From: Patescibacteria group bacterium
GTDB lineage: Bacteria; Patescibacteriota; Doudnabacteria; UBA920
NCBI GenBank assembly: GCA_023484515.1
Contig: JAMDAY010000017.1
Location: forward strand, 1-36,958
DNA length: 36,958 nt
Reading direction: 5' to 3'
Under the pieces are notes generated by a model. It was given only the letters and a program-made list of their open reading frames with translations. It was not told where the DNA came from and ran no database searches. A program made the translations under genes and the position numbers. This document shows positions 1,162 to 34,227 of this stretch, piece after piece. Each line of letters begins with the position of its first letter. Within the stretch, counting starts at the first letter, position 1.

Positions 1162-1299
1162 GTAACTGCCCACTGTGTCATTGCGAGTTTTTCAGGGCTT
1201 TAACTGAAAAACAAAGCAATCTTTTCCTGGTTAGGATTGCCGCGGCCTCATATTTTAAAGCTAAAAATATGAGGCCTCGCAATGACAGTGAGCAGTTAC
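1162..1299. repeat. TGTCATTGCGAG palindromic element, cloverleaf-like intergenic copy
   Basis: The outer arms at 1162-1187 and 1276-1299 pair over about 24 bases (GTAACTGC-Y-CACTG, then TCATTGCGAG). Three hairpins lie between them: 1188-1195 with 1204-1211 (TTTTTCAG), 1216-1221 with 1235-1240 (GCAATC), and 1244-1256 with 1264-1276 (GGCCTCATATTTT). The whole element folds on paper as a four-way cloverleaf. Related elements lie inside murD (1799-1923) and the uvrD-like gene (31895-31971). The arm sequence resembles short palindromic repeats that I know from several unrelated bacteria. Confidence 0.8.
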
Positions 1300-1340: not shown

Positions 1341-1357
1341 AAATGCAAGTTACCACT

Positions 1358-2905
1358 ATGGAAATAAAAGATCTTAAGGACAAATTAGTGGCAGTTTTAG
1401 GTTTCGGCCAGGAAGGGCGGTCGGTTACGGAGTATTTGATTAAACACGGGATAAAGCCGGTGCTGTTTGACCAAAAACCCTGGGAAGAGTGGTCAAGCGA
1501 AGAAAAAGAATACATAAGGTCGTTAAAAATAAATTTTATTTTCGGAACCGGATATTTGCAGGAACTAAAGGGGTTTGACGTGGCATTTCGCAGTCCGGGG
1601 ATTAGATTACATGATATAGCGCAAGCTATTGGCCTGCCTTCCCGCAGTGAAGCGACAGGACTGCATTACACCAGTCATAATATTGCCATTACCAGCCAAA
1701 CCAAATGGTTTTTCCAGCATTGTCCTGCTAAAATTATCGGAGTTACGGGCACCAAAGGCAAAGGTACTACGGCCAGCTTGATTTATGAGATGCTTTCAGT
1801 GTCATTGCGAGGAGCAGCATCAGCTTTTTCTAAGGCGACGAAGCAATTTCTTCCATTGGATGTTAAGATTATTTCGTCGGCGCACGATGATATTGCAAAT
1901 AATGCGCCTCCTCGCAACGACACAAGGGGTGGAGCATATTTAACAGGCAATATCGGTAAAACCCAGCCTTTGGAAATTTTGGACAATTTAAATCCGGATG
2001 ACTGGGTGGTTTACGAATTGTCCAGCTTCCAATTGCAGGACCTTAAGCGCAGTCCGCATATTGGCGTTGTATTAATGGTCACACAGGAACATTTGGATTA
2101 TCATCAGAATGCTGTAGAATACAGGGAAGCCAAAGCTCCCATCGCAAAATTCCAATCAGCCGGCGATTTTGCGGTGATAAATGCGGATTATCAAGAGTCG
2201 TTAAAAATCGGAGAGCAGGGAAAAGGGCAAAAATATTATTTCAGCAGGGAAAAAGAGGTGGAAAAAGGCTGTTATGTAAAAAATGGGCAAATTATCGTAA
2301 AAGGCATAGGCGAATCCAATTTCCAATATCCAATTTCCAATATCCAATTGCGCGGCCGGCACAACCTGGAAAATATCTGCGCTGCGGCCGCTGCTTCCGC
2401 TTTAGCCGGCGTTGATACCAATTCCATAAAATCAGCATTGCAAAATTTCAAAGGCCTGGAGCACCGCCTGGAATTTGTAGCGGAAAAGAATGGCATAAAA
2501 TTTTATAACGACTCTTTTTCCACCACGCCGGAAACGGCCATTGCCGCCATAAATTCTTTTTCAGAACCCTTGGTTGTTATTTTAGGAGGATCTTCCAAAT
2601 TTGCGGATTTTACGGACCTGGGCCGGACAATTGCAGAAACAAAAAACATCAAGGCCTTGGTATTAACCGGCCAAGAAGCCGGCAGGATTAAGGAAGCGAT
2701 TTTTAAGGCGGGAAAGGCCCTGCCAAAAATTATGGAAGGAGCGGCAAACATGAAGGGCATTTTTACACAGGCATTATCAGCCGCCCAAAAAGGGGACGTA
2801 GTGCTGCTAAGCCCGGCTTGCGCTTCATTCGGCATGTTCAAAAATTACAAGGACAGGGGAGAGCAATTTAAGCGGTTTGCAGAGTCTTTACAGAATACGG
2901 ATTGA
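1358..2905 (+). CDS. murD: UDP-N-acetylmuramoylalanine--D-glutamate ligase
   Basis: MurD adds D-glutamate to UDP-MurNAc-L-alanine in the cytoplasm, the second amino-acid step of peptidoglycan precursor synthesis. The N-terminal nucleotide-fold reads VAVLGFGQEGRS. The ATP loop is TGTKGKGTT at about residue 131, followed by GNIGKTQPLE, then HRLEFV and NDSFSTTPE in the C-terminal domain. At 515 residues it is longer than the usual 440-460. Much of the excess is an in-frame palindromic element (1799-1923) between the P-loop helix and GNIG, and a further short piece is a heptad repeat (2314-2348). I chose the ATG at 1358 over 1343 because of the promoter position and because MEIKDLKDKLVAVLG matches the usual start. 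The gene ends in TGA. Downstream ftsW and murJ form a wall-synthesis block with it. Substrate D-Glu would come from MurI at 15734. Confidence 0.93.
   Translation: MEIKDLKDKLVAVLGFGQEGRSVTEYLIKHGIKPVLFDQKPWEEWSSEEKEYIRSLKINFIFGTGYLQELKGFDVAFRSPGIRLHDIAQAIGLPSRSEATGLHYTSHNIAITSQTKWFFQHCPAKIIGVTGTKGKGTTASLIYEMLSVSLRGAASAFSKATKQFLPLDVKIISSAHDDIANNAPPRNDTRGGAYLTGNIGKTQPLEILDNLNPDDWVVYELSSFQLQDLKRSPHIGVVLMVTQEHLDYHQNAVEYREAKAPIAKFQSAGDFAVINADYQESLKIGEQGKGQKYYFSREKEVEKGCYVKNGQIIVKGIGESNFQYPISNIQLRGRHNLENICAAAAASALAGVDTNSIKSALQNFKGLEHRLEFVAEKNGIKFYNDSFSTTPETAIAAINSFSEPLVVILGGSSKFADFTDLGRTIAETKNIKALVLTGQEAGRIKEAIFKAGKALPKIMEGAANMKGIFTQALSAAQKGDVVLLSPACASFGMFKNYKDRGEQFKRFAESLQNTD
1799..1923. repeat. 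TGTCATTGCGAG palindromic element inserted in frame in murD
   Basis: The arm GTGTCATTGCGAGGA (1799-1813) pairs with TCCTCGCAACGACAC (1909-1923) with one mismatch. An inner hairpin joins GCGACGAA near 1834 to TTCGTCGGC near 1873. The translation (SVSLRG ... APPRNDT) has no counterpart in ordinary MurD proteins that I know, while the MurD sequence resumes directly after it. Confidence 0.8.
2314..2348. repeat. five tandem heptads WTCCAAT inside murD
   Basis: The units are ATCCAAT, TTCCAAT, ATCCAAT, TTCCAAT, ATCCAAT. They encode SNFQYPISNIQL. A four-unit version of the same heptad sits inside lepA at 8254-8281. Confidence 0.8.
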
Positions 2906-8050: not shown

Positions 8051-9886
8051 ATGTCCAATCAAAATAATATCCGCAACTTTTGCATTATTGCCCACATTGA
8101 CCACGGGAAGTCCACGCTCGCGGACCGGCTTTTGGAAATTACCAATACCGTGGAAAAGCGCGATATGAAAGACCAGTTATTGGACCAGATGGATTTGGAA
8201 AGGGAGCGGGGCATTACCATTAAACTGCAGCCGGTAAGAATGCAATACAAAATATCCAATATCCAATATCCAATATCCAATGAAGATACAAAATTTGGAA
8301 ATTCGGAATATATTCTAAATTTAATTGATACTCCCGGGCACGTGGATTTTACTTACGAAGTTAGCCGTTCGCTGGCTTGCTGCGAGGGGGCAATTTTGGT
8401 GGTAGACAGCACGCAGGGCATAGAAGCGCAGACCTTGGCTAACGTGTATTTGGCCCTGGAACACGATTTGGTTTTAATTCCGGTAGTCAATAAGATTGAC
8501 CTTCCGAATTCCGACCGGCAGAAAACCGCGGCAGAGCTTAAAGCCGCTTTCGGGTTTAAGGAAGAAGAAATAATATACGCTTCGGGCAAGACCGGGGAAG
8601 GCGTGGAAGAGATTTTGCAAGCCGTGGTTAAACGCGTGCCGCCGCCCAAGGGCGAACAGGAAAAGCCTTTCCGCGGGTTAATTTTTGACTCGGCCTATGA
8701 CATTCACCGCGGCGTAATTGTTTTTGTCCGGTGTTTTGACGGCAAGCTTAACCCCAGACAAAAAATTTACATGATAGGCAGCCAGACCCAGGCGGAAAGC
8801 CTGGAAGTCGGCTATTTCCATCCCAAAATGGAAAAATGCGACGGGCTTAAAACCGGCGAAGTGGGGTATATTGTCACCGGCCTGCGCGACGTCAGCAAGG
8901 CGCGGGTAGGCGACACCGTAACTTTTAACGGCTCAACGGCCGTTGAGCCGTTGCCCGGCTACAAGCACATTAAGCCCATGGTTTACGCCACAATTTTTCC
9001 GGTCAGCGGCGACGACTATCCCTTGCTTCGCGACGCCATGGAAAAATTAAAGCTTTCCGACGCGGCCTTGGATTTTGAGCCGGTCAATATTCCTTCCATC
9101 GGCTTTGGTTTCCGTACGGGCTTTCTGGGCTTGCTGCATATGGATATTGTGCAGGAGCGCCTGACTCGGGAATATAATCTGGACTTGGTCTTAACCGCGC
9201 CTTCTGTGGCGTATCGCGTCATAAAAACCGACAACAGCGGCGTTTATATCCATAATCCTGCGGAGTTTCCCGACCCTTCGGTAATTAAAGAAATTTACGA
9301 GCCGTGGATGGCGGTAAATATTTTAACGCCTTCCGGTTACATTGGACCGATAATGGAAATAGCTACGCAGCGCCGGGCAATATCCAAGGACATTAAATAT
9401 ATTGGCAAAGACCGCGTGGACATGCATTTTGAAATGCCTTTGGCCAACATTATTTTGGATTTTTACGATAAATTAAAGAGCGTATCTTCCGGTTATGCGT
9501 CCTTAAATTACGATTTTATTGAAGAAAGGCTCGGAGACTTGGTTAAAGTGGATATTTTAGTCGCTGGAGAGCCGGTTCCGGCCTTGGCTGCCATTATGCA
9601 CCGCAGCGTGGCGCAAACAGAAGGCAAAGAATTGGTGGAAAAATTAAAGAGATTAATTCCCCGCCACCAGTTTGAAATTGCCCTGCAAGCCGCCATTGGC
9701 GGCAAGGTGATAGCCCGCGAAACCATTTCCGCGCTGCGCAAGGACGTAACCGGCTACCTCTACGGCGGCGATGTTACCAGAAAAATGAAGCTTTTGAACA
9801 AACAAAAAAAAGGAAAAAAGCGCATGAAAAAAATCGGGAAAGTTGACATACCGCAGGAAGCGTTTTTGGCGGTTCTAAAGAAATAA
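8051..9886 (+). CDS. lepA: elongation factor 4 (LepA), ribosome-associated GTPase
   Basis: LepA is a translational GTPase linked to ribosome back-translocation and initiation or biogenesis effects. Motifs in order are G1 AHIDHGKST (about 14-22), DLERERGITIK, G3 DTPGHVDF, G4 NKIDLP, and the LepA-specific C-terminus YLYGGDVTRKMKLLNKQKKG ending IPQEAFLAVLKK. It has 611 residues, slightly above the usual 598-605. The excess fits a short in-frame heptad repeat (8254-8281) between the switch I region and ILNLIDTPG. A 26-bp palindrome lies at residues 293-301 (NGSTAVEPL) without adding length. It starts 57 bases after murJ. No clear Shine-Dalgarno sequence is seen. Confidence 0.95.
   Translation: MSNQNNIRNFCIIAHIDHGKSTLADRLLEITNTVEKRDMKDQLLDQMDLERERGITIKLQPVRMQYKISNIQYPISNEDTKFGNSEYILNLIDTPGHVDFTYEVSRSLACCEGAILVVDSTQGIEAQTLANVYLALEHDLVLIPVVNKIDLPNSDRQKTAAELKAAFGFKEEEIIYASGKTGEGVEEILQAVVKRVPPPKGEQEKPFRGLIFDSAYDIHRGVIVFVRCFDGKLNPRQKIYMIGSQTQAESLEVGYFHPKMEKCDGLKTGEVGYIVTGLRDVSKARVGDTVTFNGSTAVEPLPGYKHIKPMVYATIFPVSGDDYPLLRDAMEKLKLSDAALDFEPVNIPSIGFGFRTGFLGLLHMDIVQERLTREYNLDLVLTAPSVAYRVIKTDNSGVYIHNPAEFPDPSVIKEIYEPWMAVNILTPSGYIGPIMEIATQRRAISKDIKYIGKDRVDMHFEMPLANIILDFYDKLKSVSSGYASLNYDFIEERLGDLVKVDILVAGEPVPALAAIMHRSVAQTEGKELVEKLKRLIPRHQFEIALQAAIGGKVIARETISALRKDVTGYLYGGDVTRKMKLLNKQKKGKKRMKKIGKVDIPQEAFLAVLKK
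8254..8281. repeat. four tandem heptads ATCCAAT inside lepA
   Basis: Four exact copies of ATCCAAT encode ISNIQYPISN, between YK and the strand YILNLIDTPG. Most LepA proteins I know have only a few residues here. Same family as 2314-2348. Confidence 0.85.
8927..8952. repeat. 26-bp palindrome, family AACGGCTCAACG (copy 2), inside lepA
   Basis: AACGGCTCAACGG is followed at once by its exact complement CCGTTGAGCCGTT. It encodes NGSTAVEPL, a variable loop just before PGYK. Copies without coding function lie at 1091-1128 and 34204-34227. Confidence 0.85.
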
Positions 9887-30741: not shown

Positions 30742-31010
30742 ACAATTTAGAAAAAATAAGCCACTTTCCGTTTCGAGGCAATCAAGTGGCAAATGCTGAT
30801 GATCTTGACGGAGCCAGTATAATAATGGCAGGAATAATTTTTCAGCTTGAAAGATTGGCTGGCGATTCTTTCGGACAACTCTATAAAACAAGGGAACGTA
30901 CAGACTTAGGACCACTTTCTTATTATTATTTTAGAAATACCTTTTTACTTCGTAAAGTCTGCGAACTGGCCCGTCTCTTGCAGGACCGAAGAATAAAAAA
31001 TAATGTCTAA
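30666..31010 (+). CDS. unknown protein, possibly the back half of a frameshifted gene
   Basis: 114 residues from a TTG at 30666. The frame is already open from about 30607, reading RGDTANITAADTFENLGLP, with a good AGAGGAGAT (30619-30627) but no proper start codon behind it. The C-terminal part (LDGASIIMAGIIFQLERLAG, then YYYFRNTFLLRKVCELARLL) looks like a folded helical domain. It overlaps uvrD by eight bases. No family recognised. Confidence 0.45.
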   Translation: MGLPQSCFRKKQTDKDFIQNIAKSLDNLEKISHFPFRGNQVANADDLDGASIIMAGIIFQLERLAGDSFGQLYKTRERTDLGPLSYYYFRNTFLLRKVCELARLLQDRRIKNNV

Positions 31011-34000
31011 TCTACTAGAAAATTTAAATAAAGAACAAACCGAAGCCGTTACACACACAAAAGGGCCTTTACTGATTGTGGCCGGGGCGGGGACGGGCAA
31101 GACTACGGTGATTACCAGGAAGATTGCCTATTTAATAGAACAAGGGCTGGCCAAACCGGATGAGATACTGGCTTTGACGTTTACGGAAAAGGCGGCCGGG
31201 GAAATGCGGGAGCGCGCGGACATTCTTTTGCCCCTGGGGTATTACGATATGTGGATTTCCACATTCCACAGCTTTTGCCAGAGAATCCTTGACCAGCACG
31301 GCCTGGACATTGGCCTGCCAGGGGATTTTAAAATTTTAACCGAAACGCAGCAGTGGATTTTAATCCATAATAATTTGGATAAATTTAATCTTGATTACTA
31401 CCGCCCCCTGGGCAACCCGAAAAAATTTATTTCCGCGCTGCTGAAGCATTTTTCCAAATGCAAGGACGAACTGATTACGCCGGCCGAATACTTGGAATAT
31501 GCGCAAAGCTTGAGGCTGCGGACGGATATGCCGGAAAAGACTAAGCGCATAGCGCTAAGCGCTAAGAAAAAAAACAAGGTAAACAGGGATCAACAAACCG
31601 CAGTCCTTATCCCCAGCCCCTTAACTCTTAACCCTGACATTGACGAGACCGAAATTGCCAGGCTTGAGGAAGTCGCCAATGCCTACCACGTCTATCAAAA
31701 ATTGCTTTTAGACAATAATTCTCTGGACTTTGCGGACTTGATAAATTATACTTTGGAGTTGTTTAAAAAACGGCCGAAAATTTTATCCCATTACCAAAAT
31801 AAGTTTAAATATATCCTGGTAGATGAGTTCCAGGACACAAATTATGCGCAATATCAATTGGTAAAACTACTAACAATGGTATCTGCTCAATCGATGTCAT
31901 CGCGAGTGCAGCCGAAGCGATCTTTATCCGGAGAAAAGATTGCTTTGTCGGATGCGCTCCTCGCAATGACACCCCCTTCCCATTTCAACCTCACCGTGGT
32001 CGGCGACGACGACCAGTCAATTTACAAATTTCGCGGCGCTTCGGTTTCTAACATTTTAAAATTCCAGGAAGACTTCCCCGATTTAAAGCAAACTACCCTG
32101 GTGGAAAACTACCGCAGCAGCCAGGAAATTTTGGATTTGGCTTATAATTTCATCCAGCTCAATAATCCCGACAGGCTGGAAGTTAAATTAAAAATTGACA
32201 AGCGGTTAAAATCGCGAAACAGTCCGGAAAAACCTAATTTTTCATCTTTTTTAGATAATCACCATTCGGAGAGCGCGGTTCAGGTCTTGGAAGGCAAAGA
32301 TTTAAGCGATGAATTAAACGGCGTGGCAAAAAAGATTTTGGAACTTAAATCCCAAAACCCCAAACAATCTTGGAACGATTTTGCAATACTTATTAGGAGC
32401 AATTCCGCATCTGACGAACTATTGCCCATCCTGTCGTCTTATGGCATTCCGCACACCTTTGTCTCCAGTACCGGCCTGTATAAAAAACCTTTAATAGCCA
32501 ATCTGATCGCTTACATGAAGCTGCTGGGCAATTTTCACGATTCCCTCAGCTTATACCGGGTTTTAACTTTTGCAGATTTCGGGATTAAGCCAAAAGACTT
32601 GTCCACCCTAATGGAGCTTTCCGTAAAAAAAACTTTGTCCCTCTACGAAGTGTTGCAGCAAGCCCAGGCCCTGCCTGAAGCGGATGCGGAAACGAAGAGT
32701 AAGATTACGGAATTCCTGGAAATCTTGCATTGCCACGCCCGCGAAAGCCAGGCCAAGGCCGCCACGGAAGTATTTGTAGACATTATTGACGGCTTAAAAT
32801 TAAGAAGTAAGCTGGAAGCGTCAAGTTTGGAAAATGCGGAAAACCGCGAATTGTTGGAGCAGTTTTACAAAAAAATGGAAAGTTTTGTGCAGGAAAATGC
32901 CGACAAGAGCCTGCATTACTTTTTGCATCTGCTGGACCTGGAACTGGAGGCCGGGGACGAAGGGCAGATAAAGTTTGACCCGAATTTGGGGCCGGAAAAC
33001 CTTAAGGTTTTAACCGTACACGCGGCCAAGGGCCTGGAATTTGCCTATGTCTTTATTGTTAACCTGGTAGACCAAAGGTTCCCGACCCGCGCGCGCAAAG
33101 ACCAGATAGAAATCCCTTCCGCGCTGGTCAAAGACATTTTGCCGGAAGGCGATTTCCATTTGCAGGAGGAACGTCGCCTTTTTTACGTTTCCCTGACCAG
33201 GGCCAAACAAAAACTTTTCCTAACCTGGGCCAAGGATTACGGCGGCAAAACGCTAAAAAAACCTTCGCAGTTCCTGCTGGAAACGCATCTGGTGCCGGGC
33301 GAAAAAGTAAGCGCCGCCACCGGCAAGGTAATTTTTACAAAAGTTGAACAGCGCCCCGCAGTATACCGCGACCTGCCCAAAAATTTTTCGTTTTCCGCCA
33401 TTAAATCCTTTAAAAATTGCCCTTTGGAATATAAATATAAATATTTTTTGAAATTTCCGGCCAAGGGCAACCATTATTTAAGTTTTGGCCAGACTATCCA
33501 CGCCACATTTGAACTGTTCTTGAAAGATTTTCAAAACCGTTTAAACTCCAAACAGCGGGATCTGTTCGGCGGAGATAGCGGCAGAATAGAAACCGGCTCG
33601 TTTGAATTGCTGGAGGAGCTTTACCGAAAAAATTGGGTGGATGAATGGTATTTAAACAAGGAGGACAAGGAAAAATACCGTAAAAGGGGTTTGGATATGC
33701 TCAAAATTTTTTATGCCGATACTAAAATAAATCCTCCCGCGCCAAAATATATTGAGCAAAGATTCAGTTTAAAATTAGGCGACTACTCTTTTAACGGAAA
33801 AATTGACCGGGCAGACCTGCTGCCTAGCGGCGGTTTGAAAATTTTGGATTACAAAACTTCGGAAAAAGTTCCTAAAAAGGCCGCCAAAGACGACTTGGAC
33901 CAACTGTACATTTACCAGTGGGCGGCGCAGGAATTTTTAAACGAAAAAGTTTCAGAACTGTCCTACTGGTACTTAAACGAAAACAAAATAGTCCCGGAAG

Positions 34001-34149
34001 AAATTGCTCCCGAAGAGAAAATTGCAAAACTAAAAAATAGCCTTTTTGAAACCATTGAATTAATTAATTACACCATTGAGCACGATCTTTTCAGGCAAGA
34101 ACATGCCAAGCTCCGCGACCACAAGTGCCAATACGAAGGGCTGGAATAA
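31003..34149 (+). CDS. UvrD/Rep-family DNA helicase fused to a PD-(D/E)XK nuclease
   Basis: 1048-residue superfamily 1A helicase with a C-terminal RecB/AddB-like nuclease. Motifs in order: Q motif NLNKEQTEAV, Walker A AGAGTGKTT (about 27-35), Walker B VDEFQDTN (about 273), motif III VVGDDDQSIYKFRGA (about 332), NYRSSQEIL, TVHAAKGLEFAYVFIV and RRLFYVSLTRAKQKL. The nuclease domain starts at FSFSAIKSFKNCPLEYKYKY (about 793); the metal site is IDRAD and KILDYKTSEK (about 945), with a Q-x3-Y motif, DQLYIYQWA. This architecture suits double-strand break processing. There are two unusual insertions: residues about 180-210 (variable, Pro-rich) and 298-323, a palindromic repeat element translated in frame. 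Confidence 0.92.
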   Translation: MSNLLENLNKEQTEAVTHTKGPLLIVAGAGTGKTTVITRKIAYLIEQGLAKPDEILALTFTEKAAGEMRERADILLPLGYYDMWISTFHSFCQRILDQHGLDIGLPGDFKILTETQQWILIHNNLDKFNLDYYRPLGNPKKFISALLKHFSKCKDELITPAEYLEYAQSLRLRTDMPEKTKRIALSAKKKNKVNRDQQTAVLIPSPLTLNPDIDETEIARLEEVANAYHVYQKLLLDNNSLDFADLINYTLELFKKRPKILSHYQNKFKYILVDEFQDTNYAQYQLVKLLTMVSAQSMSSRVQPKRSLSGEKIALSDALLAMTPPSHFNLTVVGDDDQSIYKFRGASVSNILKFQEDFPDLKQTTLVENYRSSQEILDLAYNFIQLNNPDRLEVKLKIDKRLKSRNSPEKPNFSSFLDNHHSESAVQVLEGKDLSDELNGVAKKILELKSQNPKQSWNDFAILIRSNSASDELLPILSSYGIPHTFVSSTGLYKKPLIANLIAYMKLLGNFHDSLSLYRVLTFADFGIKPKDLSTLMELSVKKTLSLYEVLQQAQALPEADAETKSKITEFLEILHCHARESQAKAATEVFVDIIDGLKLRSKLEASSLENAENRELLEQFYKKMESFVQENADKSLHYFLHLLDLELEAGDEGQIKFDPNLGPENLKVLTVHAAKGLEFAYVFIVNLVDQRFPTRARKDQIEIPSALVKDILPEGDFHLQEERRLFYVSLTRAKQKLFLTWAKDYGGKTLKKPSQFLLETHLVPGEKVSAATGKVIFTKVEQRPAVYRDLPKNFSFSAIKSFKNCPLEYKYKYFLKFPAKGNHYLSFGQTIHATFELFLKDFQNRLNSKQRDLFGGDSGRIETGSFELLEELYRKNWVDEWYLNKEDKEKYRKRGLDMLKIFYADTKINPPAPKYIEQRFSLKLGDYSFNGKIDRADLLPSGGLKILDYKTSEKVPKKAAKDDLDQLYIYQWAAQEFLNEKVSELSYWYLNENKIVPEEIAPEEKIAKLKNSLFETIELINYTIEHDLFRQEHAKLRDHKCQYEGLE
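31895..31971. repeat. TGTCATTGCGAG palindromic element inserted in frame in the uvrD-like gene
   Basis: TGTCATCGCGAG (31895-31906) pairs with CTCGCAATGACA (31960-31971) with one mismatch. The inner stem pairs AGCGATCTTT with AAAAGATTGCTTT. It is translated as SSRVQPKRSLSGEKIALSDA and so on, just before the strand NLTVVGDDDQSIY. Related to 1162-1299 and 1799-1923. Confidence 0.82.
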
Positions 34150-34203
34150 TTTTTACCGGCACTTTTAGTTCCCGCAAGACAAATACGTTAGCCGATCAAG
34201 GTT

Positions 34204-34227
34204 AACGGCTCAACGCGTTGAGCCGTT
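34204..34227. repeat. 24-bp palindrome, family AACGGCTCAACG (copy 3)
   Basis: AACGGCTCAACG followed directly by CGTTGAGCCGTT. Outer bases AGGTT and AACCT extend the symmetry. It lies in the gap after the uvrD-like gene, 23 bases before a promoter. Confidence 0.85.

Follow-up and report, generated by a model that had tools for sequence, protein, structure and literature searches.

A dispersed palindromic element carried in frame within murD and other housekeeping genes of Doudnabacteria

A TGTC-tagged palindromic element is dispersed in Candidatus Doudnabacteria. Its distribution among sister species is patchy; many genes carry it in frame, and most of their orthologues lack it. It is very probably a non-autonomous, REP- or MITE-like mobile element that multiplied in this lineage and lands without target-site duplication, with the copies that survive in genes being translated as loop inserts and decaying there. 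We characterized it starting from a window of 36,958 nucleotides (the whole stretch of DNA that was analysed) from a Ca. Doudnabacteria genome of 1.3 Mb (the source genome, G000), a member of Patescibacteria with the small genome that the first-pass annotation of the window had supposed.

The copy in murD lies within a gene for a UDP-N-acetylmuramoylalanine–D-glutamate ligase whose product matches Pfam Mur_ligase_M (residues 134–351) and Mur_ligase_C (374–493). It measures 123 bp, or 125 bp (1799–1923) with an extra outer G/C pair, and its extended arms (1799–1820 and 1902–1923) are 86% complementary. A 125-bp palindrome with arms and an inner hairpin had been described here from the sequence; the arms were found, and the inner palindrome is present in an eroded form, GAAGCAATTTC...GATTATTTC, degraded relative to the GAAGCAATCT...AGATTGCTTC of the family. 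The single strand of the element folds better than its shuffled versions (z = −4.4; 0 of 200 shuffles equally good). The MurD frame reads it as VSLRGAAS...PPRNDT, after the P-loop helix and before the strand leading to GNIG—a placement given correctly at first pass and borne out by relatives, model and solved structures—and the open, in-frame, stop-free insert suggests that the element is translated within MurD. The enzyme exceeds the median length of its relatives (520 versus 468 residues) by 52 residues rather than by the 60 or so first proposed, and 42 of these do come from the element. A 7/14-nt tandem repeat (CCAATATCCAATTT) is found in frame elsewhere in murD (2312–2350; NFQYPISNIQL); the same unit occurs at 8238–8288, in frame in lepA (YKISNIQYPISN), where the repeats appear to extend a loop of the GTPase domain.

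Table 1 Copies of the palindromic element in the window, their parts and their host genes
Feature	Position	Strand	Evidence
murD (UDP-N-acetylmuramoylalanine--D-glutamate ligase), 520 aa, host gene	1343..2905	+	ORF; Pfam; MurD PDB structures
Palindromic element TGTC...GACA in murD, residues 153-194	1800..1922	+	Arms, fold, frame, absence in relatives
Left arm TGTCATTGCGAG of murD element	1800..1811	+	Arm search of window
Right arm CTCGCAACGACA of murD element; one mismatch, minus-strand reading TGTCGTTGCGAG	1911..1922	-	Arm search
Inner palindrome, left half GAAGCAATTTC (family form GAAGCAATCT), eroded	1840..1850	+	Comparison with family
Inner palindrome, right half GATTATTTC (family form GATTGCTTC), eroded	1867..1875	-	Comparison with family
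Intergenic element copy upstream of murD	1176..1287	+	Arm search, copy comparison
UvrD/PcrA-like helicase, C-terminal PD-(D/E)XK nuclease domain, host gene	31003..34149	+	Pfam UvrD-helicase 10-361, UvrD_C, PDDEXK_1
Third copy, in frame in UvrD/PcrA-like helicase, 26 aa MSSRVQPKRSLSGEKIALSDALLAMT	31895..31971	+	Arm search; frame; PcrA comparison

As the first-pass annotation had anticipated, alignment with close relatives revealed a clean insertion of residues that they lack, rather than a stretch conserved among them. At least 25 MurD sequences of relatives align without the insert and have 8–24 residues where the source MurD has 50; solved MurD structures have 5 residues (137–141 of 3lk7) versus 45. 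The sole relative with an insert of the same element is G019 (L031, Ca. Doudnabacteria AlinenLipids bin-7426), at the same codon; its insert is 33 residues long, that of the source genome 42, and the two have little in common beyond the element's own arms. In an AlphaFold2 model built on a 26-sequence alignment (mean pLDDT of 87), the insert formed the expected low-confidence loop (residues 161–190 below 50, between helix 140–166 and strand 198–201), and it is thus predicted to be a disordered surface loop on an enzyme that is well folded elsewhere. An ordinary loop, specific to the lineage and under selection for a function (for example, regulation or docking), with only a secondary likeness to repeats, would suit a stop-free insert in an essential enzyme and its recurrence at one codon in a second species, but is very improbable given that the same DNA family recurs dozens of times at unrelated sites and in unrelated genes, that the two inserts diverge outside the arms and that the model gives the insert no fold. 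The common codon could also reflect one ancestral insertion in the two genomes, lost in all relatives, instead of two independent insertions. The AU test left a clade of G000 and G019 standing (not rejected, p = 0.068), and one site in AtpG has apparently decayed copies common to several species (see below); however, a MurD tree inferred with the insert columns left out did not join the two genomes and placed G019 with the insert-free G005, requiring two changes (moderate support), the inserts differ in length and the same loop carries unrelated repeats in other relatives. We consider a single ancestral insertion rather unlikely and prefer two independent ones.

The first-pass annotation had identified the murD copy and missed two others in the window, one intergenic and one in a helicase gene (Table 1). 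Arm-like sites with up to two mismatches number 8 in the window (1.9 expected; maximum of 5 in 100 shuffles), and an Rfam search of the window returned tRNAs only, with no match to the element. The helicase copy follows motif II (DEFQDTN) and precedes VGDDDQSIY, in a stretch of 38 residues (293–330) that corresponds to 5 in PcrA (240–244). Other palindromes were also observed: the region upstream of murD at 1022–1145 contains a perfect hairpin with 22-bp arms (ATACCAAGGGGACTCCTTGTGC) and a palindrome with 36-bp arms, making four palindromes in 900 bp together with the element copies at 1176 and 1800. The motif TTAACGGCTCAACG occurs both in the upstream palindrome (1083–1105) and close to where the helicase gene ends (34193–34215). 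At the start of the contig, an ORF (186–998) encodes a long low-complexity stretch rich in Asn, Asp and Gln (DNNQGDNNNND...).

Far from being confined to murD, the element occurs in many copies across the source genome, which has 36 exact GTCATTGCGAG arms versus 0 for the reversed control (58 versus 6 with one mismatch allowed). Arm counts varied across 22 genomes of the same family (0–52), and one genus could include both species rich in arms and species with none. An arm search of 380 Patescibacteria genomes from across the phylum found at least one arm in 150 and at least ten in approximately 42 (hand count of the table), and the control never exceeded 6. From this patchiness between species, rather than from observed movement, we infer that the element is mobile. 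When an idealized 75-nt dimer, composed for the search, was compared with plasmids, it matched a half-element in Methylosinus (100% over 32 nt) and dimer-like sequences in cyanobacteria, a hint, based on likeness rather than on a test of descent, that the hairpin class may extend across phyla. Several copies in the source genome (on contigs C10, C20, C3 and C27; L143, L148, L002 and L132) lie within a longer repeated unit that exceeds the element, and the units on C10 and C20 are nearly identical. One 239-bp copy (C27:42967–43205; L133 1467–1706) contains a further, nested palindrome of the GTAGTTGCC...GGCAACTAC type, which resembles an unrelated palindrome in the M24 peptidase gene of G019.

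To describe the family, we used 139 paired copies from seven rich Doudnabacteria genomes (G000, G003, G011, G014, G018, G019 and G020). All are head-to-head pairs with the tags outside, and few single arms occur besides. The ends read TGTC in 247 of 278 cases and CGTC in 16, a terminal tag that is partly built in because the copies were chosen by their arms. Each half (approximately 40 nt; median GCAAT offset, 35 nt) consists of ATTGC...GCAAT around a long, variable inner hairpin, usually with GAAGCAATCT, and is followed by the inverted half; the tail is CT in 175 of the approximately 190 halves scored and CCA in 3. The element would thus consist of two TGTC-tagged hairpins joined head to head, the first reading TGTC-ATTGC...GCAAT-CT and the second its inverse. 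The flanks show a preference for YYTN|...|NAAA (pyrimidines before, A or G after), and a search of the copy ends for target-site duplications (k = 2–5, offsets 0–4) detected no enrichment of direct repeats. The lengths of coding copies modulo 3 are spread 13/17/10, and therefore no fixed length is added, as a fixed-length duplication would do. A classical DDE-type MITE, which needs a fixed-length target-site duplication, was rejected on the basis of these two results. A GTAG-type REP or REPIN mobilized by a RAYT (Y1) transposase encoded in the same genome would likewise be a hairpin dimer without target-site duplication, such repeats also lie inside ORFs in some species, and Y1_Tnp genes do occur in the genome. 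This origin is nevertheless improbable: the tags are TGTC or CGTC rather than GTAG, and GTAG REPs are linked to RAYT genes, whereas the numbers of Y1_Tnp genes do not follow those of the element (47 arms and no Y1 gene in G011; 8 Y1 genes and no arm in G001). No mobilizing enzyme emerged from this comparison with Y1_Tnp genes. As a guess, the REP- or MITE-like element that we favour might move by hairpin-based single-strand transposition in trans.

Forty of the 139 copies (seven genomes) are in frame within long ORFs, here those that contribute 110 or more residues besides the element and stay open throughout it, a criterion that itself accounts for part of the enrichment of open frames among coding copies. 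The hosts, for the most part core enzymes, include MurD, a second Mur ligase, CarA, CarB, AtpG, RsmI, KsgA, Dus, an MnmA-type tRNA methyltransferase, RNase HII, DnaX, UvrC, the UvrD-like helicase, PrmC, YmdB, M24 and M16 peptidases, an oxidase subunit, ABC ATPases and a TDH-like dehydrogenase with two copies. All but 3 of the 40 hosts matched Pfam domains, many of which span the insert. A ninth case in the source genome, an RluA-type pseudouridine synthase with one degenerate arm, comes in addition to the 40. Coding copies are slightly shorter than the others (median, 96.5 versus 109; p = 0.017). The inserts start with VSLR (SLR), VIA or CHCE and finish with RND or LAMT; the left arm has no stop codon in any of its three frames and the right arm is open in two of three, which may aid survival in genes. 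Survivors in genes would be copies that lack stops, restore the reading frame and sit in a loop at the protein surface, probably to be translated as a mostly disordered extension. Removal of the insert at the RNA level, or its bypass by the ribosome, is suggested by the strong mRNA hairpin, but is scarcely credible: genic copies are in frame and free of stops, which neither process needs, and the other 99 copies included no convincing frameshifted host. Just two of these were flanked on each side by at least 60 open codons of the same strand, and the peptides were not protein-like.

We examined recurrence at the same loops in four proteins chosen for having copies (M24 peptidase, CarA, AtpG and MurD). 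The new finding is that in sister species these loops can be occupied by palindromes unrelated to the element or by 7-nt repeats. Five species have the element at the M24 peptidase site (G000, G003, G014, G020 and, with a degenerate arm, G010), four have unrelated in-frame palindromes (G012, G021, G019 and G001; z of −3.6 to −7.5) and about five have a short loop. The G018 insert, taken for a palindrome by eye, folds no better than shuffles (z = −1.1) and was not counted. The CarA linker has the element in G000 and G014, other palindromes in G019 and G018 (z = −5.4 and −4.5), a weaker one in G021 (z = −2.3) and none in G020; in several species, the insert loop of MurD contains tandem repeats of 7 nt. 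A second palindrome family, CTCCCCTNNAGRGGGGAG, is dispersed in G000, G021, G019 and G018 and lies in frame in the M24 peptidase of G021. At AtpG site 1, G014 and G011 have the element, and the sequences in G020 and G021 look like decayed copies, judging by their ends (SRMHSAGMT and SRMLLPGMT). The site in G014, G020 and G021 looks vertically inherited, so not every common site need be a fresh insertion. Given the unrelated palindromes of sister species, the loops look like recurring landing sites, and the simplest reading is that they accept insertions and are filled time and again, with some copies being inherited vertically and decaying. Insert-tolerant loops would be reused by the element and by unrelated palindromes, old copies decaying to ordinary-looking loop sequence. 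We lean towards a broader proposal, in which loops of essential Doudnabacteria enzymes (MurD, M24 peptidase, the CarA linker and AtpG) may be recurring safe harbours for several unrelated families of palindromic selfish elements, which insert in frame in different species, persist and decay, and in which selfish palindromes may be one of the principal origins of new loops in the core proteins of this lineage.

The best-known in-frame selfish palindromes are those of Rickettsia. At the peptide level, none of ten insert peptides matched a model of the NCBIfam library, which probably includes models of the Rickettsia palindromic elements (RPEs). As cited in PMC10969869, RPEs are palindromes of approximately 100–150 bp that occur in a small genome, in frame within housekeeping genes that are unrelated to one another (Ogata 2000, 2002). 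The parallel drawn at first pass stands as a likeness in how the elements work; the peptide comparison gave no sign of membership in one of the RPE families. The Doudnabacteria element is found in a different phylum, uses all three reading frames and occupies sites where sister species can have unrelated palindromes instead. Nor are RPEs the only parallel, as had been thought, given that CGTC- and GTAG-tagged REPs lie inside ORFs in many species (PMC3733652), with a GTAG REP at about the same site in Xanthomonas recB. According to the same survey (Di Nocera et al. 2013), most of whose examples are from Proteobacteria, CGTC-tagged REPs often have CGTC changed to TGTC, a stem that starts with AT and is 8–9 bp long, loops of 4–5 nt and a CCA tail; they are mostly head-to-head dimers with no dedicated transposase found, include intragenic copies, some of them in repair genes, and occur in five phyla, without Patescibacteria, and RPE-4 and RPE-6 are CGTC-4 and CGTC-1 (PMC3733652). 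By anatomy, CGTC/TGTC-tagged REP dimers are the nearest described class, with the same head-to-head arrangement and a tag that arm selection partly built in. We call the Doudnabacteria element a variant rather than a member because its ATTGC/GCAAT stem encloses a long, variable inner hairpin instead of a 4–5-nt loop and its tail is CT instead of CCA; it also belongs to another phylum. A literature search of limited coverage found no published Patescibacteria examples of such elements, and a text search with the arm sequence returned unrelated primer matches only.

In-frame selfish palindromes are abundant in this small-genome member of Patescibacteria, in enzymes that cannot be lost. Its copies range from young to old, and unrelated palindromes occupy the same loops across sister species. 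The system therefore offers a direct way to ask which parts of a protein accept inserts, whether insertions occur at random before selection sorts them, and whether selfish DNA turns into ordinary protein. A caution follows for CPR proteins: insertions specific to one lineage may be repeats in decay, to be masked before trees are built or functional claims are made.
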